Assembly (NCBI RefSeq): GCF_004365635.1
Contig: NZ_SOBH01000003.1
Span: 372,001-436,000, forward strand
Length of the DNA: 64,000 nucleotides
Source of the DNA: Litoreibacter halocynthiae
GTDB lineage: Bacteria > Pseudomonadota > Alphaproteobacteria > Rhodobacterales > Rhodobacteraceae
Direction: 5' to 3'
The notes under the pieces were generated by a model, which saw nothing but the letters and a program-made list of their open reading frames with translations, searched no databases and was not told where the DNA came from. Both the position numbers and the translations under genes were made by a program. Shown piece by piece: positions 25,272 to 42,758 of the stretch. The stretch's first letter is position 1. Each line of letters starts with the position of its first letter.

Positions 25272-28200
25272 TCAAGACTTCAGCGGCTTCTTGTCTCCGC
25301 GGACCAATCGCAGGTCATATAAGATCATGTAGGCGGCGGGCGTTACAAACAGTGCCAGAAACGTAGCGCCGGACAATCCAAAGGCCAGACTCGCGACGAT
25401 CGGCCTCAGGAACTGGGCTTGGGTTGACTGTTCAAACAGAAGTGGGCCAAGCCCCACGACGGTGGTCAAGGAAGTCAGGAAGATCGGGCGAAAACGATCC
25501 CGCACCGCACTAACCCCAGCGTCCATCAGGTCATCGCTAGTATCATGATGGCTCTTGATGAACTCCACCAACAAGATCGAGTTGTTTACAACGACGCCAG
25601 CAAGCGTTGCCAGACCAACGAAACTTGGCAGGGACAACTGCATTCCAAGCGCAAGGTGCCCCCACATCATCCCGATGATGCCCAATGGAATTGCAAGAAA
25701 GACTGCAATTGGCTGGATAAAACTACGGAACTGAAAGGCGAGGATGAGCCAAACACCAATGAACCCCATGGCGAGGTTGCGCATCAGCGATGCACCGGTG
25801 GTGGCGGTGTCTTTGGACTCGCCCACGACCACGACGTTTATTTCCGGATGGCGCTGGCTTAGATCAGGGAGAAAGCCAGTGCGCATGGCCGCCATCAGCT
25901 CGCGCGAATTTGCGACATTGGGATTGATGGAGCCTGTCACCGAAACCGTTCGCATTCCATCAATCCGAGTGATCGAGGCATAGCCTCGCGTCAGACGAAT
26001 ATCTGCCACAGATGAAAGCGGCACCAATGCACCGCCAGTTCCAGACACGCGGATGCTACCGATATCGCTGGCAGCATTGCGGTCTGACGCGTTGAGACGC
26101 GCAACGATATCAAGCCCACCCAGCGTGTCCTGCACTTCCAGACCGGTATCGCCACGAAAGCTTGCTCGTAGTTCTGTCGCGATGCCTTGTGCTGACACTC
26201 CAAGCGCCGAGGCGGCGGCGGGACGCAGCGAAACGACGTACTCAGGTTTACCCGGACGCAGATCATAGGCTACGTCGCGTACGCCTTGGAAGGCACGAAA
26301 GAATGCTCGCATGTCGCGCGCTGTTTCCTCCAGTGCCACCATATCAGGCCCCTGCAAACGCACATCAATTGGCTTGCCGCCAACGCCGCGTTCCTTGTCC
26401 GTAAATCTTAGGCTGGCCATGTCCGGCATTGGGCCAGTGGCCTTTCTCCAGTCGCTGACGATCTGTGTGACTGTTGTCGTTCGGACCCCAGCTGGCAGAA
26501 GCTTTGCGCTGACTGTTGCCAGATGAGGGCCACTTTCAGACGCAGCATCGGCATTTGAACCAAAGGTAACCGTTACACTTTGGACAAGCGGCTGCGTGTC
26601 AGGTTGTTTTGGTGTTTCCGCGGCGTTGATTTTTTCCAGCGCAGCGACAACCTTTTGAACACGTGCTTGGGTCTGCGCCAGCGGCGCGCCCTGCGCGAGT
26701 AGGAGCCGTGCTTCGACTGTATCGCTCTCCAAAGTCGGAAAGCTTTGGAACTTGATCAGCCCTGCGGTGAACGGAGTGATTGATACCAGCAGGATGAAGC
26801 CAACCACCCCCAACGTGAAGTAGCGAAACCGCAGCGCTTGGCGTGCAAGCGGCACAATGGCTCGGTCGCGGAGGATGTCGAAAACCCCATTCATCCAACG
26901 ATTGACGCGATTGGGCTGCATGTCGCCGCGCAGTGCGTGTGCAAGGTGGTTCGGGAGCACAAGAAACGCCTCTATCAGGCTAACAATAAGGGTGATCACC
27001 AAGACCACGGGAAGGAATTTGAGCACTGCGCCAATCTGACCCGCCATGAGCCCAAGTGGACCCACAATCATGACGGTTGTTAGAAAAGAGGCCATAACGC
27101 CAGGGCCCACTTGTGTGACCCCCTTCAAGGCGGCTTGTACGGGCGTTTCCCCAGCCAATCTGCGACGTACGATGTTTTCGGATATCACGATCGAGTCGTC
27201 CATCAGCAAGCCAATCGCGACCAAGAGTGCTACCATTGTAATCATGTTGATCGTCAACCCCAAAAGCTGCATCGTGAAGATGGTGCCTAGAAAGGACACC
27301 GGCAGCGTCAACGCGACCCAGAAGGAAAAGCGCAGCCCAAAGAATAACCCCATCACGATCAGGACCAGAACCAAGCCCTGCATGCCGTTCGTGGTGATGA
27401 TCCGCAGTCGTTCGGTGATATTGGATGTACTGTCTTGCGAGATTGCCAATTCGATCCCAGCGGGTGCCTGCGCGCGCGCCGTATCCAAGCGGGTTTTTAA
27501 TGCGGCCATCACACGCAACGCATCTTGCGTCGAGGTCTTCGTGACGCTGACGATTGCTGCGCGCTTGTTATTGTAGAACGTCGCATCATAGTCGTCCGCG
27601 AACCTGTTGGTGATTTTTGCGACGTCCCCAAGCAAAATCTCAGTGCCCAATTCTGATCCCAGCAATGGGATTGTCGCCAACTCGTTTGGGCGTCGGCGTT
27701 CACCAGCAAACCGTACCAATGCGTCACCCTCGGGGCCCTCTAGCGTTCCGGCGGGGACATCCAAGCTGTTGCGGGACAATGCGGCTGCGACCGCAGATAT
27801 GGTCAAACCATGACGTTGCAGCGCCGTGGCGGATATTTCGATGACAATCTCTCGGTCAGAGAAACCGCCTACGGTTGCTTGGGATATCTTCGGATCAGCC
27901 TTTAAAAACTCCGCAAACTGATCGGCGTAGGCTAAGAGAACTTTGGGGTCGGTCGAGCCAGTCACCGCGATCGAGGCAACGTTTGCGACGCGTTCTACGA
28001 TGCGGGTTACTGGAGCGTCGGCCTTTGCAGGGTAGGCGGTGACCCCATCCACGGCGGCTTTCACATCAGCGGCAAAGCGCGTCATGTCGGCGCCTTCGAC
28101 CATTTCAGCTGTCAGAACAGCCATGTTGTCGCGCGCCTGACAGGTCAGCTCCGCGAGGTTGTCGACACTCCGGATCGGGTCTTCGGCGACCATGCAAATG

Positions 28201-28379
28201 CCAGTTTCGACGTCGGCTGGTGCCGCTCCGGGATAGACGATTCGCACTTCAACATCGGACGGCGGGATTTCGGGAAAACTGTCGCGTTGCAGTGTTGGCA
28301 AGGCGGCGATGCCAAGGCCGATGAACAGCACCATCAAGATGTTGGCGGCGGTTGCGTGGCGCGTGAACAGCTCGATCAT
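25272..28379 (-). CDS. RND-family efflux pump inner-membrane transporter
   Basis: 1035 residues, the normal length for an AcrB/MexB-type proton-driven pump with 12 membrane helices and two large periplasmic loops. The N-terminus MIELFTRHATAANILMVLFIGLG and helix 4 with LLMDDSIVISENIVRRR (paired Asp for proton relay) are characteristic. Late helices include LPSFVGLATLAGVVVNNSILLVEFI. It works with the adaptor encoded just upstream (4-bp ATGA overlap) and an outer-membrane channel not in the window. The drug or lipid substrate is not readable. No regulator gene is adjacent. Confidence 0.95.
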   Translation of the reverse strand: MIELFTRHATAANILMVLFIGLGIAALPTLQRDSFPEIPPSDVEVRIVYPGAAPADVETGICMVAEDPIRSVDNLAELTCQARDNMAVLTAEMVEGADMTRFAADVKAAVDGVTAYPAKADAPVTRIVERVANVASIAVTGSTDPKVLLAYADQFAEFLKADPKISQATVGGFSDREIVIEISATALQRHGLTISAVAAALSRNSLDVPAGTLEGPEGDALVRFAGERRRPNELATIPLLGSELGTEILLGDVAKITNRFADDYDATFYNNKRAAIVSVTKTSTQDALRVMAALKTRLDTARAQAPAGIELAISQDSTSNITERLRIITTNGMQGLVLVLIVMGLFFGLRFSFWVALTLPVSFLGTIFTMQLLGLTINMITMVALLVAIGLLMDDSIVISENIVRRRLAGETPVQAALKGVTQVGPGVMASFLTTVMIVGPLGLMAGQIGAVLKFLPVVLVITLIVSLIEAFLVLPNHLAHALRGDMQPNRVNRWMNGVFDILRDRAIVPLARQALRFRYFTLGVVGFILLVSITPFTAGLIKFQSFPTLESDTVEARLLLAQGAPLAQTQARVQKVVAALEKINAAETPKQPDTQPLVQSVTVTFGSNADAASESGPHLATVSAKLLPAGVRTTTVTQIVSDWRKATGPMPDMASLRFTDKERGVGGKPIDVRLQGPDMVALEETARDMRAFFRAFQGVRDVAYDLRPGKPEYVVSLRPAAASALGVSAQGIATELRASFRGDTGLEVQDTLGGLDIVARLNASDRNAASDIGSIRVSGTGGALVPLSSVADIRLTRGYASITRIDGMRTVSVTGSINPNVANSRELMAAMRTGFLPDLSQRHPEINVVVVGESKDTATTGASLMRNLAMGFIGVWLILAFQFRSFIQPIAVFLAIPLGIIGMMWGHLALGMQLSLPSFVGLATLAGVVVNNSILLVEFIKSHHDTSDDLMDAGVSAVRDRFRPIFLTSLTTVVGLGPLLFEQSTQAQFLRPIVASLAFGLSGATFLALFVTPAAYMILYDLRLVRGDKKPLKS

Positions 28380-29659
28380 TGAGCTGACGCCTGAACGGCC
28401 AATGCGGCTGCAAGTGCTTTGTCCTCAACTGGTTTAACAGCCATGCCCGGTACTGCTACAGACAGATCTGTGACTACGAGTTTATCGCCCACAGCAAGTC
28501 CGCCAGAAATAATGGCCAGACCATCGACTGTGTAGGCAAGCTTAACCTCGCGTGGCTCAAGCTTACCTTGCGCGCTGACAACAAGCGCTTGGTTCTGGGT
28601 GATCGCGGTGGACGGTGCGACCAGAGCTTTGCGTGACGGAGCGCGAAGCAGTACCTCGACAAACATATCGCGGCGCAACGGCGGCCTTTCGCCTGCAATC
28701 GCCTGCTCCATGGGCCTGTCAACCCGAACAACAATTCTGGCGCTTTGGGTGCGCGCTTCGATTGCATCACTGACGCGTGCGACAGTTGCAGGCCACTCGA
28801 TAACACGACCGGCTTGGCTCAACTCGACTTGCGCGTTCAGGTCCAGAACGCTCATGCCGGGCTCCAGCGACCGTATCAGCGGGCCCATTTGCCCGATGGG
28901 GAATTGAGCCGTGATTTCCACGGCTTCCGTTCCATCTGCTGAAAACAAGACAGCGCCGCGGGCCACATATTGTCCCAGGTCTGCCTCAACTGATCTGATT
29001 TGAACGTCGAAAGGCGCGACCACCGACATAAAATCGAGGCTACGCGCAGAACTGGCACGTTGCGCCAACAGGACCGCGCGCTCGGCCTCATTCAATGCAA
29101 GTTGGTTTTGGATATCCGTCAGTTTAGAGCGGGCCGTTAACTCCGCCCGTGCCGCCTGATCGCGCGCAGTTCGTGTTGTGACGCCTTGGTCTTGAAGGTC
29201 TTGTTGCCGCTTTAGATCACTCTCGCTAATGGCCAGATCGGCGCGGCTAAGTTCAAGGCTTGCATTCAGCGTATCATCTTTCACATTTAATGCCGCCATT
29301 TGCGCATCCAACTGCGCAAGGGTTAGCCGCACATCCGTGTCATCGATCTTCAACAACTCTGTCCCCGATGGCACAAAATGCCCATCCGAGAGAAGCGGTG
29401 AAGACTTTATGATATTGCCCTCCACTCGCGCTATGGCGCGCCATTCGCGAGCTGGGGCTACAACACCATATCCGGTGACACGAGGGATCAGATCGACTTC
29501 GCTCAAGGTAATGACCCGCACCGGTACAGATAGTGATGCGGTTTCCTTAGGGGCGGCCTCGGATTTGATGGAGCCAGAGTAGAGGATCGCCCCAACGCCT
29601 AACGCTAGCGGAATACCCACGGCAAAAAGCCGTCTGAAAACGATTATCCAAGTGCGCAT
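28376..29659 (-). CDS. RND efflux periplasmic adaptor (membrane-fusion protein)
   Basis: 427 residues. An N-terminal membrane anchor (LFAVGIPLALGVGAILYSG) is followed by the split lipoyl domain (VVAPAREWRAIARVEGNI ... APFDVQIRSVEADLGQYVARGAVLF). Between them lies a coiled-coil hairpin rich in L, A, Q and R (about 105-205), then beta-barrel and membrane-proximal domains. AAAGGA lies 8 bases upstream of the ATG. It bridges the pump to an outer-membrane channel. Confidence 0.93.
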   Translation of the reverse strand: MRTWIIVFRRLFAVGIPLALGVGAILYSGSIKSEAAPKETASLSVPVRVITLSEVDLIPRVTGYGVVAPAREWRAIARVEGNIIKSSPLLSDGHFVPSGTELLKIDDTDVRLTLAQLDAQMAALNVKDDTLNASLELSRADLAISESDLKRQQDLQDQGVTTRTARDQAARAELTARSKLTDIQNQLALNEAERAVLLAQRASSARSLDFMSVVAPFDVQIRSVEADLGQYVARGAVLFSADGTEAVEITAQFPIGQMGPLIRSLEPGMSVLDLNAQVELSQAGRVIEWPATVARVSDAIEARTQSARIVVRVDRPMEQAIAGERPPLRRDMFVEVLLRAPSRKALVAPSTAITQNQALVVSAQGKLEPREVKLAYTVDGLAIISGGLAVGDKLVVTDLSVAVPGMAVKPVEDKALAAALAVQASAQ

Positions 29660-32834: not shown

Positions 32835-32846
32835 GTTAACGAAGAA

Positions 32847-32872
32847 GGCTCCCGTGCTTGTGCGCGGGAGCC
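32847..32872 (+). terminator. Hairpin terminator after the aldehyde dehydrogenase gene
   Basis: GGCTCCCG pairs with CGGGAGCC over a 10-base loop, 12 bp past the stop codon. There is no T-tract, so termination may be weak or Rho-assisted. Confidence 0.55.
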
Positions 32873-33646
32873 AACCAAGACCGCGATAATCAAACCAGAC
32901 ATAACCCAAAGATCTGTGTTCGTCGAAATACCATAGCGATCTCAATACTGCCGTCGGCGACCCAAAAACTCGTTACCGATTTTCGCTGCATTGCGTGTTT
33001 TCGAACGAATTTCGCCGAATACACAGTTACGAGTTGATACCGGCTGTTGGACCGAATGAATCAAAAGTCAGCTAAGTCCGCACAGCGGACCACCGTCCAG
33101 GACGCGGCGAAAGACCGCTTGCCGCATATTGGGCTCTGAAGGTGCTTCATCTTTAAGGTATCAGGGTAGTTGTCATCACCCCTTAGAAGGAAGGCATGCC
33201 GGTATTCGAGGTAGCATTCAAAGGCAAGTATTTCTGAAATCGAGCTCGCGTAACCAAAATCAACCAATTACCACAATGTGTTAACAGCCACCCAAGGGTG
33301 GCTTTCGGCGTTAGGGCTATCGCCATGGAAGCTCTGTAGAAGCAACCGAAGCGCGTAATGTCGGGCCAATCGGTTGCAACAATCTCCAGTCATCTTGATG
33401 ATGCCTGATCATCCAAATTTGAGGCATAGAGAAAATCGGGCGAAAACTCGCAATGCTTGAAGGAGGAGATGCATGGCGGTTTTCTTGCCAACTACGTGGT
33501 ATTAAAATCGTGCCCGCGGGGCATTTGACAAAGCAGAATCGTCCTATCTAGTGACAAATCAGATACAACAGATCAACGGCTTCACAGTTGCGTGATCTAC
33601 GTCGTGGACTGCCCAGCAAAAAATGACGTATGGACAAAGGCAAAAG

Positions 33647-33662
33647 TTAAAGAAGTCTTAAC
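33647..33662. promoter_or_regulatory. CtrA-type binding motif
   Basis: TTAA-AGAAGTC-TTAAC matches the alphaproteobacterial CtrA consensus TTAA-N7-TTAAC exactly. It lies 123 bp upstream of the start of the Ig-repeat surface protein. Confidence 0.5.
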
Positions 33663-33784
33663 CTGCGGTTTTTTCAAGTTCATTTTTTAAGAGTCCCACC
33701 GAGGAGAGCAGACTTCCAAATAATAAATTGCGATTGAATCGGCTGAGCAGGCCGAGCGCGTCGCAGATAGTGCGGGAGAACGTG

Positions 33785-36700
33785 ATGTCGGGCATAATGC
33801 GTGGCGCAATGCAGTCGGTTATTTGGCTGGTTGTTCTTTTCGGGTTTCTGGCAATACGCCGCGGCATATCTCTTTTCCAAACTCCGGGTAATTATCTGCG
33901 CCGATCTTGCTCGGTGGCTACAGGCTTTTGGGATCGAAACCTAAAGATCGTTTCACGTATTTTGGCCACGGTTGTCGCTCTCACTGCCCCCCTTACAGCT
34001 TCTGCGGGTCAGGAAACCTTCACCGTCCAGTCAGTTCCCAATTTCTATACAATGATCCTCGGCGACGGGAACGGGAACACGATCACAGTTACCGGCGACC
34101 CGACAAACTCCAACTGTTTCTCGATTACCTCCGCTGGCCGGGTCACGATGTTCGCTTCATATCCTCAACCCCTAGTAAACAATACGACCGCCTGTGACCG
34201 CTCCATCGTCATGACGTTCACAACGAACGGGTTTGAAATGGGCGATGTCCTGTTCGCCGATATTGATGACATGGACGGCTTCACGTCGCGGGACAGTTTC
34301 GCGTCGAATGTTCCGGGGACATGGAGTTCTACCACGGGTCTGGGGCAATACAGCCTCACATCGCCACCCGGCTTCGCCGATGAAGTCGGCCGTCTTATTG
34401 CCTCCGGTGGTGTCGGCAGCTTTTTGGCGAGAGATTCGGTAAACGATCCGACCGACGATCAGGCGAGGTTTGTTCTCGATACTCCCGCGACGACGTTTCA
34501 AATTATTCAGGATGATGTCCAAGGCGTGCGATCAGCACGCATGTTTTTCACATTGTCGCCGCTTCCAGTCTTCATCACCGACCCGATAGTTGCAATAGAC
34601 GATACATCCCCCCCGATAATCGGTTCTGTCGGCGGGACGACAAGCTCGGTGCTTGATAATGATACACTCGCCGGGAGCCCGGCAACGCCGACCAATGTGA
34701 CCCTGACCCCGGGCACCGCTCCCACGCCGACTGCGGGTTCGCTTACCATGAACCCGGATGGCACCATCACGGTTGCACCGGGTACGACCGCTGGCACCTA
34801 CACCTATAACTACGAAATTTGCGAGACGGCATTTTCGACAAACTGCGCAACTGCAACCGCCACCGTCGAGGTCGCGCCCGCCGATATTCTTGCGGCGGAT
34901 GATGGCTACGGCCCGTCCAATGGTCTGACCGGTGATCCCGATGTGGGCAACGCCTTCGACAATGACACGCTGAACGGCGATCCCGTCGTTCCTGCCGACA
35001 TCACCGCCACCGTGCTGACCCCCGCCACGCCACTTGCGCCGGGCGCGCCGGTGCCGGCGCTGGATCCGGCGACGGGAACCGTCTCGGTGCCTGCGAACAC
35101 GCCGGCCGGCAGCTACACGATCAGCTACGAGATCTGCGAGAACCTGAACGCGACCAATTGCAGCGACGCCGAGATCACCGTCGAGGTCGCGCCCGCCGAT
35201 ATTCTTGCGGCGGATGATGGCTACGGCCCGTCCAATGGTCTGACCGGTGATCCCGATGTGGGCAACGCCTTCGACAATGACACGCTGAACGGCGATCCCG
35301 TCGTTCCTGCCGACATCACCGCCACCGTGCTGACCCCCGCCACGCCGCTTGCGCCGGGCGCGCCGGTGCCGGCGCTGGATCCGGCGACGGGAACCGTCTC
35401 GGTGCCTGCGAACACGCCGGCCGGCAGCTACACGATCAGCTACGAGATCTGCGAGAACCTGAACGCGAGCAGCTGTGATGACGCGATCGTCACGGCGGTT
35501 GTAACGCAAGCCCCGATAGAAGCAGTCGATGACACGCCGCCGCCTGTGAACGGGCTTGAGGGTAATCCAGAGGTTGCCAATGCCTTCGACAATGACACGC
35601 TGAACGGTGATCCTGTCGATCCCGAGGATATCACTGCGACGGTGACGACCCCGGCTACTCCCATTGTGCCGGGGGCTTCCGTTCCCGTTCTGGACACGGC
35701 CACAGGTGTAGTATCGGTAGCGCCGGAAACTCCGGCGGGCGAATACTCGATTGTCTATGAAATCTGCGAGGACCTGAACCCGACCAACTGCGACGATGCA
35801 ACTGTCGTCGTCACGGTAACGGAGGCCCCGATTGGGGCAGAGGACGATACCCCGCCGCCCGTGAACGGCCTGCTTGGCGACCCTGAGGTCGTGAACGTTC
35901 TGGACAACGATACGTTGAACGACACGCCGGTTGACCCAAGCGATGTATCTGTTGCGGTTACGGCACCGGCCACGCCGGTGACTCCGGGCGCACCTGTTCC
36001 GGTGCTGGAGGAGGCGACGGGTATCGTGTCCGTTCCGGCAGGAACACCGGCTGGCACCTACGAGATCACCTATGACCTTTGCGAGAACCTCAACCCCGCC
36101 AATTGCGATACGGCCGTGGTCACCGTCGTGGTCGATCCGCCGGAAATTGAAGCGGTCGACAACATTCTGACGACGCCTGTTGATTTGGCCCTGCCTGTGG
36201 CCGGACTTGTGAATGTCTTCGACAATGACACGCTCAACGGGGCGGCGTTTGATCCCAGTGCTGTGACGGTGACGCCGGTAGGCGCGTTGCCCGCCAACTT
36301 TGTGCTGAACCCCGATGGGACCGTGGACACGACCGCGTTTGTGCCTAACGGAATCTACACGTTCGACTATCAGATCTGCGAGGTTGTGAACCCGACCAAT
36401 TGCTCGACCGCGACGGTGTCCGTGCCGGTCGAAAGCTCTGTCCCTGCGGTCAGCGGGACGGTCTACCTTGACAGCAACGGTAACGGCGCCTTCGATGCGG
36501 GCGCGGACGAGACTTTGCCAAACTATGTGGTGCAGTTGCTCCGCAATGGCGAGGTCGTTGAAGAAACGGTGTCCGGCCCCGATGGCGAATACCTGCTTTC
36601 CGGTTTCCCGCCCAACTCGGGTTACGAGATCATCTTTACCGACCCCGAGACAGGGATCGCTGTCGGGTCGATCCAGGACCTGACATTCGAGGTCGATACA

Positions 36701-38158
36701 ATTCTCGAAGACCAGAATCAGCCGATTGATCCGGCGGGCGTCGTCTACGACTCCTCCACGGGTTTGCCGATCTCGGGTGCAACCTTGCAGCTGACCGATG
36801 CGGCGGGCGTTGCGCTGCCGACGGCCTGTCTGTTGCCGGGACAGCAGCCCCAGACGACAAATGCTTCCGGCGCTTACGGTTTTGACGTGATCCCCGGTGC
36901 GGCACCGCAATGTCCTGCCGGTGAAACCGAGTACCAGATCGCCATCACGACCTACCCGCCTGGCTATGTCGCGGCCCCCTCGGCCTTGGTTCCGCCACAA
37001 GCTGGATCGCTGGACGCCACCACATGTCCGGTTGATGCCATCCCCGGTGGCAGCTGCCAGTTGTCGGCATCACTGGCACCCCCTGCGGCGGGTGCACCGA
37101 CGCCCTACTACTTCAGTTTCTTGCTGGAAGCAGGCGATCCGGATGTCATCAATAACCATATCCCGCTGGACCCTATTCCTGTGGTGCCGGTAGCGGGCCT
37201 GACCGTCACCAAGATTGCTAGTGTTTCAACCGCGCGCTTGGGCGACACGGTGACGTATACGATCACCGCTGCGAACGCGAACCTGACTGCTGCGGGTCCT
37301 GTCGATCTGGTTGACAGCTTGCCGCCGGGATTCCTGTTCACACCGGGCAGCGCAACGCTGGACGGCGCGCCTGTTGTCCCGACCGTCGTGGCCAACCGTA
37401 TTACCGTGCCGGGTGTGACCGTGCCTGCCTCGGGCAATGTCGTGCTGGTCCTGCAAGCGCGTGTTACAAGTGCCGCGCCTCCGGGTGATGCGGTCAACCG
37501 TGCGCGTCTGGTTGATCCGGCGACGGGCAATCCGCTGACCGCCGATGGCACCGCTATCGTTCGGATCGTGGCGGAACATGTCTTCGACTGCGCCGACATC
37601 ATCGGCAAGGTGTTCGACGACAAGAACCACAACGGATATCAGGACGAGGGCGAGCCGGGTCTGGCGGGCGTCCGTGTCGTCACCGTCCGCGGCGTGCGGA
37701 TCACCACTGACTCCTTCGGCAGATACCATGTGCCTTGCGCGGAGCTGCCCTCCGACATCGGGTCGAACTTCACGCTGAAGCTGGACACCAACAGCCTGCC
37801 TACCGGCTACCGGGTGACCACGGAGAACCCACGGGTGATCCGCGTGACAGCGGGCAAAATGGCCAAGCTGAACTTCGGCGCCTCGATTTCAAGCGTGATC
37901 GACATCGACCTGACGGCGGCGGCGTTCGATCCGACCACGGGCAAGCTAGTCGACGGATTTGAAGACAGCGTTGATCGGCTCTTGGGCGCGATACAGCGCA
38001 AACCTTCGGTGCTGCGCCTGTCCTACATTCTTGAGAATGACGACCTGAAAACAGCACGGGCGCGGCTTCGCGGTGTCGAAAAACTACTACGCACGAAATG
38101 GCGCAGGGTGGGCAGCTACAAGCTGAACATCGAGCAGACCGTCAAGCGGGTGCAGTGA
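33785..38158 (+). CDS. Large secreted Ig-like repeat / SdrD-B-like surface protein
   Basis: 1457 residues from the ATG at 33785 (GGGAGA 6 bases upstream; the longer TTG start has no support). There is an unusually long N-terminus with two hydrophobic stretches, the second (VSRILATVVALTAPLTASAG, about 57-76) resembling a signal peptide. Six Ig-like/cadherin-like repeats of about 105 residues follow (about 270-885), each with a DNDTLNG-type motif and a closing YEICE-LN-NC strand. Next come an SdrD-B/CNA-B-like domain (GTVYLDSNGNGAFDAG), a carboxypeptidase-regulatory-like domain, a DUF11-type domain (VTKIASVSTARLGDTVTYTI) and a second SdrD-B unit (GKVFDDKNHNGYQDEGEPGLAGVRV). The C-terminus is basic. 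It forms an operon with the outer-membrane barrel gene 11 bp downstream. It is probably surface-exposed or secreted; the ligand is unknown. Confidence 0.85.
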   Translation: MSGIMRGAMQSVIWLVVLFGFLAIRRGISLFQTPGNYLRRSCSVATGFWDRNLKIVSRILATVVALTAPLTASAGQETFTVQSVPNFYTMILGDGNGNTITVTGDPTNSNCFSITSAGRVTMFASYPQPLVNNTTACDRSIVMTFTTNGFEMGDVLFADIDDMDGFTSRDSFASNVPGTWSSTTGLGQYSLTSPPGFADEVGRLIASGGVGSFLARDSVNDPTDDQARFVLDTPATTFQIIQDDVQGVRSARMFFTLSPLPVFITDPIVAIDDTSPPIIGSVGGTTSSVLDNDTLAGSPATPTNVTLTPGTAPTPTAGSLTMNPDGTITVAPGTTAGTYTYNYEICETAFSTNCATATATVEVAPADILAADDGYGPSNGLTGDPDVGNAFDNDTLNGDPVVPADITATVLTPATPLAPGAPVPALDPATGTVSVPANTPAGSYTISYEICENLNATNCSDAEITVEVAPADILAADDGYGPSNGLTGDPDVGNAFDNDTLNGDPVVPADITATVLTPATPLAPGAPVPALDPATGTVSVPANTPAGSYTISYEICENLNASSCDDAIVTAVVTQAPIEAVDDTPPPVNGLEGNPEVANAFDNDTLNGDPVDPEDITATVTTPATPIVPGASVPVLDTATGVVSVAPETPAGEYSIVYEICEDLNPTNCDDATVVVTVTEAPIGAEDDTPPPVNGLLGDPEVVNVLDNDTLNDTPVDPSDVSVAVTAPATPVTPGAPVPVLEEATGIVSVPAGTPAGTYEITYDLCENLNPANCDTAVVTVVVDPPEIEAVDNILTTPVDLALPVAGLVNVFDNDTLNGAAFDPSAVTVTPVGALPANFVLNPDGTVDTTAFVPNGIYTFDYQICEVVNPTNCSTATVSVPVESSVPAVSGTVYLDSNGNGAFDAGADETLPNYVVQLLRNGEVVEETVSGPDGEYLLSGFPPNSGYEIIFTDPETGIAVGSIQDLTFEVDTILEDQNQPIDPAGVVYDSSTGLPISGATLQLTDAAGVALPTACLLPGQQPQTTNASGAYGFDVIPGAAPQCPAGETEYQIAITTYPPGYVAAPSALVPPQAGSLDATTCPVDAIPGGSCQLSASLAPPAAGAPTPYYFSFLLEAGDPDVINNHIPLDPIPVVPVAGLTVTKIASVSTARLGDTVTYTITAANANLTAAGPVDLVDSLPPGFLFTPGSATLDGAPVVPTVVANRITVPGVTVPASGNVVLVLQARVTSAAPPGDAVNRARLVDPATGNPLTADGTAIVRIVAEHVFDCADIIGKVFDDKNHNGYQDEGEPGLAGVRVVTVRGVRITTDSFGRYHVPCAELPSDIGSNFTLKLDTNSLPTGYRVTTENPRVIRVTAGKMAKLNFGASISSVIDIDLTAAAFDPTTGKLVDGFEDSVDRLLGAIQRKPSVLRLSYILENDDLKTARARLRGVEKLLRTKWRRVGSYKLNIEQTVKRVQ
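34861..35468 (+). repeat. Near-identical 315-bp tandem repeat inside the Ig-repeat gene
   Basis: 34861-35153 and 35176-35468 are identical at 292 of 293 positions (A at 35032, G at 35347), offset 315 bp = one 105-residue Ig-like module. The neighbouring modules share the same period but are much more diverged, so this pair is a recent duplication or is kept alike by gene conversion. Confidence 0.9.
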
Positions 38159-38169
38159 GGGATATGATC

Positions 38170-41100
38170 ATGAACATTCACCACAGAAAATCCTTCATCC
38201 GCACTCTGCTTGGGGCAACCGCGCTTGGCGCGATTGCGACAGCACTGCCCGCCGCCGCGCAGAACAACTGCGATCTGGTCAACGGGGTATTGCCCGCATC
38301 CTGCGAAACCGGAAATGCGGGCGACACGGTCCGTATGCCCGTTGGCGTGAATACCGAAATCGCAAACGGCGCACGCCAGCCCGCGACCGGATTTATCATT
38401 AGCGTCGATGGCGAAACCTTCGAGGGTGACGAGAAAGTCGAGCAGAAGAAGCGGCAAGCGGACGTGGCTTTGGCAAAGGCTGACATTCGCGTGCAAGCCG
38501 ATGATCTGGCTGTCGAGAAGCGTCTGGACCTGGAGGTCATGGGACCAACCCGGGGCCACAAACCGGGCGACACTGTACGGTTCCAATCCGCGACCAACTA
38601 TCCGGCGTTCCTGACCCGTGGCGAGGTGCGCATCATCGACCAGCAGGCCCGTGGCGGCCCGCGCACCGTGGGCGTGTTCCCGATTGGCCCCAATGGTCAG
38701 GCCGAAGTTCGACTGCCTGATGGCCGCGATCTTGTGGCCGTTCACCGCGTCTATGACGCGCGTGGCCGCTATGACGAAACGACCGCGCTGGTGCTGGATC
38801 GCCCCAATCAGGCGCGTGGGCAGGACGACGTCGAGGAGGGAAGCTCGACCACCGCCATCGACCGCATCCCTGTCCGTGGCGGGGCCGTGACGGTCTCCGG
38901 CAGCTCGCTTGCCCCGAACGAGACCGTTTCGACCTTGGGCGAAACGATCCGCGCCGACGCGCAGGGCCGGTTTGTGTTGCAGCGCATCCTGCCGAAAGGC
39001 GATCAAACCGTCATTGTCCAAACCAAAAGCGCAGGCCGCGACGTGACGCTGGCGCGTGAGGTTGAATTGGGTAAAGCGGACTGGTTCACGGTCGCCGTCG
39101 CCGACATCACCGTCGGCCATCGCGAGCAGGCCGTGACCGGCACGGATGGAAGCTATCAAAAGGGCCGTCTGGCGTTCTTTACGCAAGGCACAAACGCCAA
39201 TGGCGTGACCATCACAGCCTCGGCGGATACGCGGGAGGAAGACCTATCGGACATCTTCCGCAAATTCGACGAGAAAGACCCGCGCAGCCTGCTGACGCGC
39301 ATCGACCCGGACGAATACTACCTAACTTACGGCGACGACAGCACCTTCGAGGAGGCCGCGCCGACGGCGGGAAAGTTCTATTTCAAAGCGGAAAAGGACG
39401 AGAATTTCGCGCTTTGGGGTACATTCAAGGGCCAAGTCAACGGATCGCATTTCCTGCGCAACGAGCGCACGCTTTACGGCGCACAGGCGCAGTATAAATC
39501 CGCTCAGCAGACCAAGAACGGCGATGCAAAGGCGGAACTACAGCTCTATGCGGCACAGCCCGACAACCTGCCGCAGCGCGATATTTTCCGCGGTACGGGC
39601 GGGTCGGTCTATTTCCTTCAGCGGCAGGATATCTCCATCGGTTCGGAAACCCTGAGCGTCGAAATCCGCGATCCGGATTCAGGCCGGGTTCTGGAGCGGC
39701 GCACGCTGGTTTATGGCCGGGATTACGACATCAACTATCTGCAAGGCGTCGTGACACTGCGCGCACCCTTGAGCAGCAGCATCGGCGGTGGAGTGGTCGT
39801 CACCAATCCCGGCGGTGAAGAAAACGTCAATCTGGTTGCCCAATACGAATACACCCCGACCGCCGGAGGCCTTGACGGATATTCCTACGGGGGCAGGGCG
39901 CAGGTTTGGGCCACGGATCAGCTGCGCTTCGGCGCAACCGCGTTGATCGAGAAGACCGGAGCCGCCGACCAGAAATCCTATGGCGCGGATATGCTCTATC
40001 AGTTCAGCGAACGCACTTATGCGACGCTGGAATACGCCCGCAGCGAGGGTCCGGGCTTCGGCTCCAGCTTCTCGACCGATGGTGGCCTGATCATCGACAA
40101 CACGGCGCCAGCTGGCGGCACGGGCGAGGCCTACAAGGCGGAAGTCGTTGCCGATTTCGCAGATCTCGGATTTACCACCGATGGTCGCTTCGGAGTGTAC
40201 TATGAGCACCGCACGCTAGGCTTCTCGACGCTGGACCATCAGGTGAGTGCGACGACGGGCGACGAAACGCTATGGGGGGCCTATACCGAATTCCAGGCCT
40301 CCGAGCGGTTGAAGTTCACGCTGTATTACGACGATTACAAGAACGACGCCGGTCAATACGCACGCGAGGGCGGTGTCGAAGGCAGCTATAAGCTGTCAGA
40401 GACCCGCACGCTTGGGTTTGGGATCGAGCATCTCGACAAGCTGACCGCTCGCGAAACAGGGTCGCGGACCGATTTTGCGCTGCGCTACACGGTGAAACCG
40501 AACGAGCGGCTGGAATGGTTCGTCTATGGGCAGGCGACGCTGAAACGCTCAGGTCTGGAAAAGAACAACCGCGTCGGGGCAGGGGGATCCTACGCCTTCA
40601 ACAACGGCTGGAAGGTCGAAGGCGAAGTGTCGGATGGCTCCACCGGTGTAGGAGCCGCCGCGCGTGTCTCCTACGAGGACGAGAACAACAACAGCGTTTA
40701 TTTCGGCTACGAGCTGGACCCGAACCGCGAGTTCTTTGCAGGCAGTGTAACTGGCAAAGACAAGGGGCGGTTTGTATCGGGTGGCCGCCGACAGGTCACG
40801 CGTGACCTCGCCTATTACGGGGAAAACACCTATGACCTGTTCGGCTCCCACAGGTCACTGACCAGCACCTACGGCGTCGATTACGCGCGCAGCGAGTTCC
40901 TGTCCTACACCGGATCGCTTGAGGTTGGCCGGATCAACGACAGCATCAATGGCGACTTTGACCGGCACGCGCTGTCATTCGGCGTGCGGTACGAGGATGA
41001 AAGTCTGACCGCACGGGGCCGTCTGGAATACCGCCGCGAACGTGGTCTCACATCCGGCACCAACCGGGATGCGGATACCATCCTCTTTGCCGCTTCCGGT

Positions 41101-41700
41101 CGCTACAAGATCGACGACACCCAACGGCTGGTGTTCAATCTGGACGCCTCGAAAACCGATACGGATCAGTCATCGATCCTCGACGGCAAGCTGGTCGACG
41201 CGTCCATCGGATATGCCTATCGCCCTGTCGACAATGACCGCCTGAATGTCTTGCTGAAATACCGCTACCTCTATGACGATTACGGCCAGCGGATAGACGG
41301 CACCGACGTGACCGGCCCGCGCCAGCGCAGCCATGTGCTGAGCTTTGACGCCATTTACGATCTGAACCAGCAATGGACGATTGGCGGCAAGATCGGCGCA
41401 CGTTTGTCTGACTCCTCTCCTAACGCCACAACGGCGTTCTCCGAGAACGACGCGTGGCTTGGTGTTGCGAATGTCCGGTATCATTTGGTCCACAAGTGGG
41501 ATGCGCTGCTGGAGGCCCGCGTTTTGAATGCGCGGCAAATCCAGACGAAGGAATACGGGCTGGTTGGCGCGATCTATCGCCATGTCGGAAACAACTTCAA
41601 ACTGGGTGTCGGCTATAATTCCGGCCGGTTCTCAGATGATCTGACCGATCTGACATATGACGACAAAGGTGTCTTCATCAACCTGATCGCCAAGTTTTAG
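38170..41700 (+). CDS. Large outer-membrane beta-barrel protein paired with the Ig-repeat protein
   Basis: 1176 residues. The ATG at 38170 is chosen because AGGGA lies 7 bases before it; it gives a signal peptide ending ALPAAAQ. Residues about 30-330 are periplasmic, including a Lys/Glu-rich segment (EKVEQKKRQADVALAKADIR) and Ig-like beta strands. From about 340 the pattern YYLTYGDDS ... ENFALWGTFKG ... NERTLYGAQAQYKS begins a long series of amphipathic strands with Tyr/Arg/Glu alternation to the end. The final residues are INLIAKF, with the terminal Phe of BAM-inserted barrels. There is no TonB box or plug domain signature, so it is not a standard TonB receptor. It likely anchors or exports the upstream surface protein. 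Confidence 0.8.
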   Translation: MNIHHRKSFIRTLLGATALGAIATALPAAAQNNCDLVNGVLPASCETGNAGDTVRMPVGVNTEIANGARQPATGFIISVDGETFEGDEKVEQKKRQADVALAKADIRVQADDLAVEKRLDLEVMGPTRGHKPGDTVRFQSATNYPAFLTRGEVRIIDQQARGGPRTVGVFPIGPNGQAEVRLPDGRDLVAVHRVYDARGRYDETTALVLDRPNQARGQDDVEEGSSTTAIDRIPVRGGAVTVSGSSLAPNETVSTLGETIRADAQGRFVLQRILPKGDQTVIVQTKSAGRDVTLAREVELGKADWFTVAVADITVGHREQAVTGTDGSYQKGRLAFFTQGTNANGVTITASADTREEDLSDIFRKFDEKDPRSLLTRIDPDEYYLTYGDDSTFEEAAPTAGKFYFKAEKDENFALWGTFKGQVNGSHFLRNERTLYGAQAQYKSAQQTKNGDAKAELQLYAAQPDNLPQRDIFRGTGGSVYFLQRQDISIGSETLSVEIRDPDSGRVLERRTLVYGRDYDINYLQGVVTLRAPLSSSIGGGVVVTNPGGEENVNLVAQYEYTPTAGGLDGYSYGGRAQVWATDQLRFGATALIEKTGAADQKSYGADMLYQFSERTYATLEYARSEGPGFGSSFSTDGGLIIDNTAPAGGTGEAYKAEVVADFADLGFTTDGRFGVYYEHRTLGFSTLDHQVSATTGDETLWGAYTEFQASERLKFTLYYDDYKNDAGQYAREGGVEGSYKLSETRTLGFGIEHLDKLTARETGSRTDFALRYTVKPNERLEWFVYGQATLKRSGLEKNNRVGAGGSYAFNNGWKVEGEVSDGSTGVGAAARVSYEDENNNSVYFGYELDPNREFFAGSVTGKDKGRFVSGGRRQVTRDLAYYGENTYDLFGSHRSLTSTYGVDYARSEFLSYTGSLEVGRINDSINGDFDRHALSFGVRYEDESLTARGRLEYRRERGLTSGTNRDADTILFAASGRYKIDDTQRLVFNLDASKTDTDQSSILDGKLVDASIGYAYRPVDNDRLNVLLKYRYLYDDYGQRIDGTDVTGPRQRSHVLSFDAIYDLNQQWTIGGKIGARLSDSSPNATTAFSENDAWLGVANVRYHLVHKWDALLEARVLNARQIQTKEYGLVGAIYRHVGNNFKLGVGYNSGRFSDDLTDLTYDDKGVFINLIAKF

Positions 41701-42028: not shown

Positions 42029-42758
42029 TTAAGCGCTAACGACGGACAAACCCGCGTCGAGCGCTTCCAATATGGTCGCAATTTCACCTTCGCTGATGAT
42101 GAGTGGTGGCGACATCAGCAGGTTATTCCCGCCGATACGCACCATTGCACCAGCCTCATAGGCTACATTGAACACTTCCGAGACACTGGACGGTGCGGCT
42201 GGTGTTTTGGCGTTCGTATCTGACACCAATTCCAAAGCAGTCATCAACCCATGGCCACCATGCACGCCGCCAACGATGTCATACTTGTCTTTCAAGAACA
42301 GCAGGCCGTTAAATAGTTGCGACCCGCGCGGAGCCACGTTCGCGTTGATCTTCATTCGTTGGGTTTCTCTGATGCACGTTAAAGCAGCGGTCGAGCCGAC
42401 GGGATGCGCCGAATATGTGTAGCCGTGGAAAATGGCCGCGAGGTTCGGGTCGCAGGTCTCGAAAACTTCGACGACCGCTTCGGACACCATACCGGCACCA
42501 AAGGGGAAGTAGCCGGAGGTGATGCGCTTGGCCATGGTCATCATGTTGGGCTGAACACCCCAGTGGCGCGAGCCGGACCAGTCGCCGGTCCGACCAAATG
42601 GTCGAGCCTTGTGCCGATGAAATAATGCGCGGCGGGTGTTCTTGCATAGCTCCCACGTGGCCCATCGGATGCCACATGTGGTGTGCGTTGTTTTCGTTGA
42701 GGAAGTTTAAGTCTTTCGTTTGGCGTCTCCCGAAGCCGTTGGCTACGGGTTGCGCCAA
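42029..42758 (-). pseudogene. Class III aminotransferase with large internal deletion
   Basis: The upstream part reads NFLNENNAHHMWHPMGH ... PPRIISSAQG, the usual N-terminus of omega-type class III aminotransferases. At about 42600 the sequence jumps, with a change of frame, to GRTGDWSGSRHWGVQPN and MMTMAKRITSGYFPFGAG, which is the region around the PLP lysine, and then runs to a normal C-terminus at 42029. About half of a 450-residue enzyme (the PLP-binding core) is missing. The C-terminal frame alone (171 residues) would not be active. Confidence 0.85.

Follow-up and report, generated by a model that had tools for sequence, protein, structure and literature searches.

A fibrillar adhesin gene and its partner gene for a predicted outer-membrane barrel in Litoreibacter halocynthiae

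The closest described relatives of the system reported here are fibrillar adhesins that end in an OmpA-type domain, such as B9T28_05395 of Acinetobacter silvestris (PDB 9IFR; PMC12617251, PMC10952558). Their stalks carry the DUF11 domain, for which a survey published in 2025 introduced the name CLIPPER (PMC12617251), and OmpA-like domains are listed among the anchors of such adhesins, mostly in Proteobacteria (PMC10952558). The route by which these proteins cross the outer membrane is unstated in the parts of the adhesin papers available to us. Here we describe a probable adhesin of this class, P0001, and the adjoining gene for a predicted outer-membrane barrel, P0002, in a 64,000-nucleotide stretch of DNA from Litoreibacter halocynthiae (contig NZ_SOBH01000003.1, positions 372,001 to 436,000), hereafter the window. 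No barrel partner of OmpA-ended adhesins is reported in the literature searched, from which subscription papers and preprints are mostly absent. In term searches of the accessible text of the two papers on CLIPPER and OmpA-ended adhesins, 'beta-barrel' occurred 0 times in one, and 'barrel', 'outer membrane' and 'secret' 0 times in the other. Within the literature searched, neither the partner barrel nor its close linkage to the adhesin has been described. The two genes are:

33785..38158, + strand: fibrillar adhesin gene P0001, 1457 codons; open reading frame without internal stops, true start uncertain
38170..41700, + strand: gene P0002 for the dedicated, predicted outer-membrane barrel, 1176 amino acids with a C-terminal Phe; open reading frame without internal stops

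A preliminary description of this DNA had claimed a two-gene layout, and this is real: both open reading frames (ORFs) lie at these positions, separated by an 11 bp spacer, and P0002 ends in Phe. The same description regarded the genes as a dedicated pair, which agrees with what is seen in relatives. Public genomes contain at least 584 stretches that code for a barrel relative, so the adhesin-barrel observation goes far beyond chance. The best 80 of these stretches on public contigs, all near relatives, were combined with the only relative on a viral contig (L119) to give 81 loci, from which four were excluded because their barrel lies at the end of a contig (L072, L087, L105 and L107). The adhesin gene adjoins the barrel gene in all 77 loci with room for it. 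A candidate ORF is located upstream of the barrel in 76 loci, and 75 of those carry a homologous adhesin C-terminus. A DUF11-repeat ORF lies directly downstream of the barrel in two loci (L050 and L056), where the sequence ends before the adhesin C-terminus. The gap between the ORFs has a median of -4 bp (range -214 to 31; 31 split pairs, measured on the longest ORFs, so that overlaps are possibly overstated). Barrel relatives occur in 22 plasmid records, and on two cyanobacterial plasmids (L123 and L125) the gene for a DUF11-SdrD_B protein of 541-542 amino acids shares 4 bp with the barrel gene.

A sample of 396 Pseudomonadota genomes, that of L. halocynthiae included, gave a barrel match in 50, and 47 of these 50 contain either an adjacent pair or a single ORF with both parts. 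One genome (G461) has a complete pair in swapped order (L168, L187). Those counted as unpaired are two with contig ends (G474 and G378) and one with a 91-codon remnant that contains a stop (G487). The adhesin end was detected at E<=1e-20 in 42 of the 396 genomes, and all 42 are among the 50 that carry the barrel. In addition, the distances among adhesin partners and among barrel partners correlate (r 0.85 over the 56 rows shared by alignment A2, made of P0002 and 69 of the 81 loci, and alignment A3, made of the window adhesin and 59 loci), compared with values of at most 0.12 in 2000 shuffles. This lends weak support, since linked genes share ancestry.

The two parts are also found joined. Among loci L127-L203 there are 28 single-ORF fusions with the adhesin part first, and L034 is another. 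One fusion of 4545 amino acids (L127) has an SdrD_B region followed after 43 residues by the barrel, and another (L178) joins a complete adhesin end to a nearly complete barrel (profile positions 35-1155). The existence of natural fusions suggests that adhesin and barrel act as one unit.

P0001 looks like a Gram-negative fibrillar adhesin, with Ig-like repeats, SdrD_B and CLIPPER (DUF11) domains and a C-terminal degenerate OmpA-like domain:

34004..34594, + strand: N-terminal head region, residues about 74-270, a candidate adhesive domain with no Pfam match
34586..36484, + strand: Ig-like repeats of about 105 amino acids each, residues about 268-900, boundaries placed by eye
34861..35468, + strand: 315-bp tandem duplication inside the stalk repeat array, 99% matches, 1.9 copies (repeat analysis)
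37199..37543, + strand: CLIPPER (DUF11) domain, residues 1139-1253 (Pfam, PDB profile and structure comparison)
37607..37729, + strand: SdrD_B domain, best stretch residues 1275-1315 (Pfam, over cut-off)
37871..38155, + strand: putative C-terminal degenerate OmpA-like domain lacking the HTD...N..L...RA motif (model and profile chain; direct tests negative)

The DUF11 match (PF01345) has an E value of 1.2e-7 and 32.5 bits against a Pfam cut-off of 24.6, and CarboxypepD_reg gives a weaker match than either SdrD_B or DUF11. A profile built from 60 adhesin C-termini (A3) has 9IFR as its only PDB match at E<=0.01 (E 6.1e-8), and structure comparison aligns the P0001 CLIPPER domain with 9IFR over 119 residues (Z 12.8, rmsd 2.9). 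The Lys/Asp/Asn isopeptide triad is present in full in 58 of the 60 rows. In P0001 the residues aligned to the triad of 9IFR are Lys1143, Asp1177 and Asn1238, for which the bond itself is predicted. About six Ig-like repeats, counted by eye, precede the SdrD_B/DUF11 part, and the 315-bp duplication corresponds to two of them.

P0001 most probably belongs to the published class of OmpA-ended fibrillar adhesins, but with a degenerate end. From the parts of the papers available, the shared characters are length, an Ig-like stalk, a CLIPPER domain with the isopeptide triad and, most probably, an OmpA-type C-terminus (PMC12617251, PMC10952558). Unlike the published members described there, the window protein has a putative OmpA-like domain of degenerate form and a head with no Pfam match. 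The partner in locus L185 carries CshA_NR2 and GEVED at its N-terminus, then DUF11 repeats and OmpA, which is the domain order given in the accessible description of a published adhesin. The preliminary description overlooked both this class and the OmpA-like domain of P0001 itself. When the A. silvestris adhesin was searched for in the family of genome G405, 2 of 200 genomes matched, at 41% identity or less. The 22 partners with a complete ORF range from 727 to 4078 amino acids, and the adhesin of Sulfitobacter guttiformis has 6195. The two shortest of the 22 (L172 and L139) are possibly fragments, since each is preceded by a further ORF that matches DUF11.

The true start of P0001 is uncertain. 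The first possible start codon of the frame is a TTG at 33728, and a GTG at 33914 is a candidate start that would yield the Sec-like signal peptide VATGFWDRNLKIVSRILATVVALTAPLTASA, the sole one visible by eye. A Litoreibacter relative (L033, also numbered L095) has a homologous N-terminus, which begins slightly before the position equivalent to 33914. This relative is 38% identical to P0001 across residues 36-340.

The C-terminal end of P0001 is most likely a degenerate OmpA-like domain, as judged from a chain of profile comparisons. The last 95 residues are modelled as beta-alpha-beta-alpha-beta (mean pLDDT 89.7, pTM 0.58). Pfam OmpA has no match in P0001 or in any of the 23 members of its alignment (A4), and profile-profile comparison of the window C-terminal family with canonical OmpA gives probabilities of 0.84% and 2.25%. 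Six related adhesins of other lineages carry two tandem domains, the first at the place equivalent to the window domain and the second resembling canonical OmpA. The window family matches this first domain with a probability of 75.5% (E 2.4e-5), and the first domain matches the second with a probability of 98.1%. Because the first tandem domain bridges the window family and canonical OmpA, the window end is best read as a degenerate form. Four of the first tandem domains were compared with Pfam OmpA directly, giving E values of 0.0019 and 0.011, both below the curated cut-off, and no match for the other two.

Canonical OmpA domains mark the same junction elsewhere. One ends the adhesin in L119, L124 and L185 (by Pfam OmpA in L124 and L185), one lies between stalk and barrel in the fusions L152 and L159, and one is near the start of the barrel protein in L176. 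If these domains do their usual job, their location places the adhesin-barrel junction in the periplasm.

The partner protein has three predicted parts:

38395..39069, + strand: Ig-like region before the barrel, residues 76-300, presumed periplasmic (AlphaFold model)
39079..41697, + strand: predicted barrel, residues 304-1176, insert left out (AlphaFold model and structure comparison)
39592..39813, + strand: predicted folded insert, residues 475-548 (GTGGSVYFL ... GRDYDINYLQG; model and conservation)

The AlphaFold model of P0002, built from 70 sequences (mean pLDDT 79, pTM 0.69), supports its assignment as an outer-membrane barrel of no named family. The preliminary description saw a periplasmic region followed by a barrel-like C-terminal part ending in Phe; the Phe-ended barrel part stands, whereas "C-terminal part" is too modest, as the modelled strands begin at residue 304 and continue to the last residue, so that the barrel makes up most of the protein. 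There are 40 modelled strands of at least 8 residues, 6 before and 34 after the insert, or 42 if two strands of 7 residues are included. The alignment of many porins over residues 304-1176 suggests that the first and last strands meet. The C-terminal Phe is conserved at 90% or more in the barrel family, and the insert region is among its most conserved stretches. Both a YGD motif and the insert's DY are unchanged throughout 19 relatives, which come from alphaproteobacteria, betaproteobacteria (Eleftheria), gammaproteobacteria (Vibrio) and cyanobacteria. Relatives are annotated under names as different as TonB-dependent receptor, OmpA family, outer membrane protein transport protein and hypothetical protein.

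Profile searches of P0002 found no family over cut-off in Pfam at E<=1, the sole match being a weak one to OMP_b-brl (E 0.0094) in a search whose HMMER filters discard most matches above E of about 0.1, and no family in NCBIfam. These searches agree with the preliminary description that the protein has no TonB plug, autotransporter layout or POTRA domains. The 19 relatives (alignment A6), searched at E<=0.01, show the generic barrel matches DUF2490 in 8 and OMP_b-brl in 6, together with YadA_anchor in 1 (9.2e-4) and the Ig-type families Invasin_D3 in 3 and Big_1 in 4.

Among the PDB matches listed, the top structural match of the barrel is SprA (Z 16.1, 622 residues aligned, rmsd 13.2), followed by porins at Z up to 15.4 and the ushers FimD (14.4) and PapC (13.8). 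A match to a known secretion pore was named in the preliminary description as a result that would speak against it; the one found lies within 1 Z of ordinary porins. No sequence match to SprA was found in the PDB at E<=10 or in Pfam. The available text of two sources gives SprA, with 36 strands, as the largest single-chain barrel (PMC9127263, PMC13067283). If the strand count of the P0002 model holds, its barrel would exceed the largest named in these reviews, and genes now annotated as TonB-dependent receptors would be renamed.

Several known systems resemble the pair in part. As described in the accessible text, ZirTS of Salmonella also consists of two genes, with an outer-membrane barrel required for secretion of its partner, and is set apart by the intimin/invasin type of the ZirT barrel and the release of ZirS to the medium (PMC2270342). 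The SprA/Sov proteins of the type 9 system share a very large single-chain barrel with folded inserts, which in SprA are located between strands 7-8 and 11-12 according to the part of the source seen (PMC9127263). They differ in having no sequence match to P0002, and next to the pair, the only place searched for them, no genes of the type 9 motor turned up. RTX adhesins share the principle that a terminal part inserted in a pore holds a long adhesin, but their accessible description involves type I secretion and N-terminal retention, in contrast to the C-terminal end here (PMC8286594). Two-partner secretion (type Vb) and type Va systems share a two-gene or single-chain logic and, in the fusions, an N-terminal passenger, whereas the pair lacks POTRA, TPS and autotransporter families and its predicted barrel is much larger.

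Membership of named systems was also judged by family content. At E<=1 in Pfam, there is no POTRA or TPS match in P0001 or P0002 that would indicate two-partner secretion, and P0002 contains no Slam family (T11SS) and no usher family, the Z scores of FimD and PapC falling among those of porins. No barrel family of type Va or inverse autotransporters was found in P0002 by Pfam. A TonB-dependent receptor was rejected on the lack of a plug family in P0002 and 19 relatives and on the Ig-like strands modelled for residues 76-300. In the available portion of a T11SS paper (PMC12282271), mentions of 'duf11' are nearly all to DUF1194, and the system treated there is a different one.

The best reading of these data is that the P0002 barrel exports and/or holds the adhesin while the OmpA-like end stays in the periplasm. 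In the export model, to which we give about an even chance, the adhesin would cross the inner membrane by Sec, and its N-terminal head and Ig/CLIPPER stalk would then leave through the very wide barrel. The C-terminal OmpA-like domain would stay in the periplasm against the Ig domains of the barrel protein, so that the fibre is held and not released, and the conserved insert may act as a plug or gate. The simplest topology would have head and stalk outside, through or past the barrel, and the junction inside. Since isopeptide-locked domains are hard to unfold for threading, they would have to fold after passage or meet a pore wide enough for them, and a barrel of about 40 strands makes the passage of folded domains possible.

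There is a real chance that this export route is new. A more far-reaching version, which we hold tentatively and rate somewhat below even, is that an entire fibrillar adhesin, perhaps with its isopeptide-locked domains already folded, goes through a single-chain barrel of about 40 strands and keeps its OmpA-like end in the periplasm. This would represent an unnamed export route and, in its two-gene and its fused form, the missing exporter of the published OmpA-ended adhesins throughout Pseudomonadota. The occurrence of adhesin and barrel side by side or fused in many Gram-negative bacteria suggests how the adhesin exits and stays attached. As the partner is nearly always next door and often fused, the crossing question could be tested by deleting one gene.

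A number of observations weigh against export and retention by the barrel. The strand count comes from one model, in which closure of the barrel is suggested by the porin alignments, and the structural resemblance to SprA does not establish kinship because porins lie within 1 Z. The peptidoglycan-binding motif HTD...N..L...RA is absent from the window OmpA-like domain; its loss makes peptidoglycan binding doubtful in this lineage, and the window end could therefore, we suppose, be held only by docking. Most of the fusions match only part of the barrel profile. The energy source or inner-membrane partner for export is not known, and none was sought genome-wide.

Linkage is also looser in a class sample of 290 genomes, which overlaps the phylum sample in at least three (G000, G157 and G228). 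According to the preliminary description, finding either gene often on its own would be evidence against a pair; this is uncommon in the phylum sample, but four of the 10 class-sample genomes with a barrel match (G135, G214, G278 and G335) hold a barrel with no adjoining adhesin. The G335 assembly is fragmentary, and G214 additionally carries a fusion. G135, G214 and G278 have adhesin-end genes elsewhere (L133-L138) with no barrel beside them, four of which (L135-L138) encode an extra 119-136 residues after the shared adhesin end. In genomes of this type, one barrel may serve several adhesins. Three further class-sample genomes show an adhesin-end match and no barrel, and in these only the DUF11 part was matched. 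Because at most 2 barrel and 5-7 adhesin-end candidates were scored in each genome of either sample, the absences and copy numbers given are minimum values.

The alternative that survives best, which we nevertheless consider unlikely, is that the barrel does no more than secure the adhesin's C-terminal end in the outer membrane, the adhesin itself getting to the surface by a different route. The three genomes with adhesin-end genes and no barrel beside them fit this proposal, as does the accessible literature, in which the OmpA-type end of such adhesins is called an anchor (PMC12617251, PMC10952558). A barrel of about 40 strands, however, is far bigger than an anchor needs. Nor is another exporter evident nearby: the preliminary statement that there is no type I ABC exporter holds for the nine neighbouring window ORFs scanned (0 of 9), the rest of the genome not having been searched.

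Autotransporters of type Va carry the passenger first and the barrel last, and the 28 fused loci have this same order. The single-ORF form could therefore be ancestral and export its own N-terminal passenger, with the two-gene form being the same machine cut in two. We find this improbable, given that autotransporter barrels have 12 strands, and it differs from export and retention by P0002 mainly in history, not in mechanism.

Several plasmid homologues are annotated as TonB-dependent receptors, and the Foldseek matches of P0002 include the receptors Cir and FptA, both of which would suit an uptake pair composed of a TonB-type receptor and a surface binder. Against this distinctly improbable arrangement, no plug family was found in P0002 (E<=1) or in the 19 A6 members (E<=0.01), the folded insert sits inside the barrel and not before it, and the partner is of adhesin type.

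It is highly improbable that the repeat protein is a periplasmic tether linking periplasm and outer membrane for envelope stability, for which OmpA-type domains in several lineages might speak, because complete partners of up to 4078 amino acids and the S. guttiformis protein of 6195 have a stalk side that would hardly seem to fit in the periplasm, and the L185 partner has CshA_NR2 and GEVED at its N-terminus.

The adhesin-barrel pair is accessory. A barrel match is present in 16 of 61 genomes, that of L. halocynthiae included, and absent from 8 of 20 genomes of the same genus. L. halocynthiae itself has a second pair on another contig (L021, G000:C1:845000-860000), with a barrel 59% identical to P0002 and an adhesin with an open frame of 4211 codons.

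Upstream of the pair, exaC (acetaldehyde dehydrogenase) ends about 900 bp before the adhesin gene, and the interval of about 900 bp between them (32835-33727) contains no evident gene. A promoter scan gave no sigma-70-like promoter on the + strand, which says little for this bacterial group. Genes for an RND permease and a periplasmic adaptor are located at 25275-29659 (- strand); no other transport machinery of this kind was met among the scanned window ORFs, and these genes show no evident relation to the pair. Directly after the pair, at 42029-42544 (- strand), is a 3' remnant of a class III aminotransferase gene, 171 amino acids corresponding to positions 281-450 of the 453 in PRK07481, which suggests an insertion or deletion scar.

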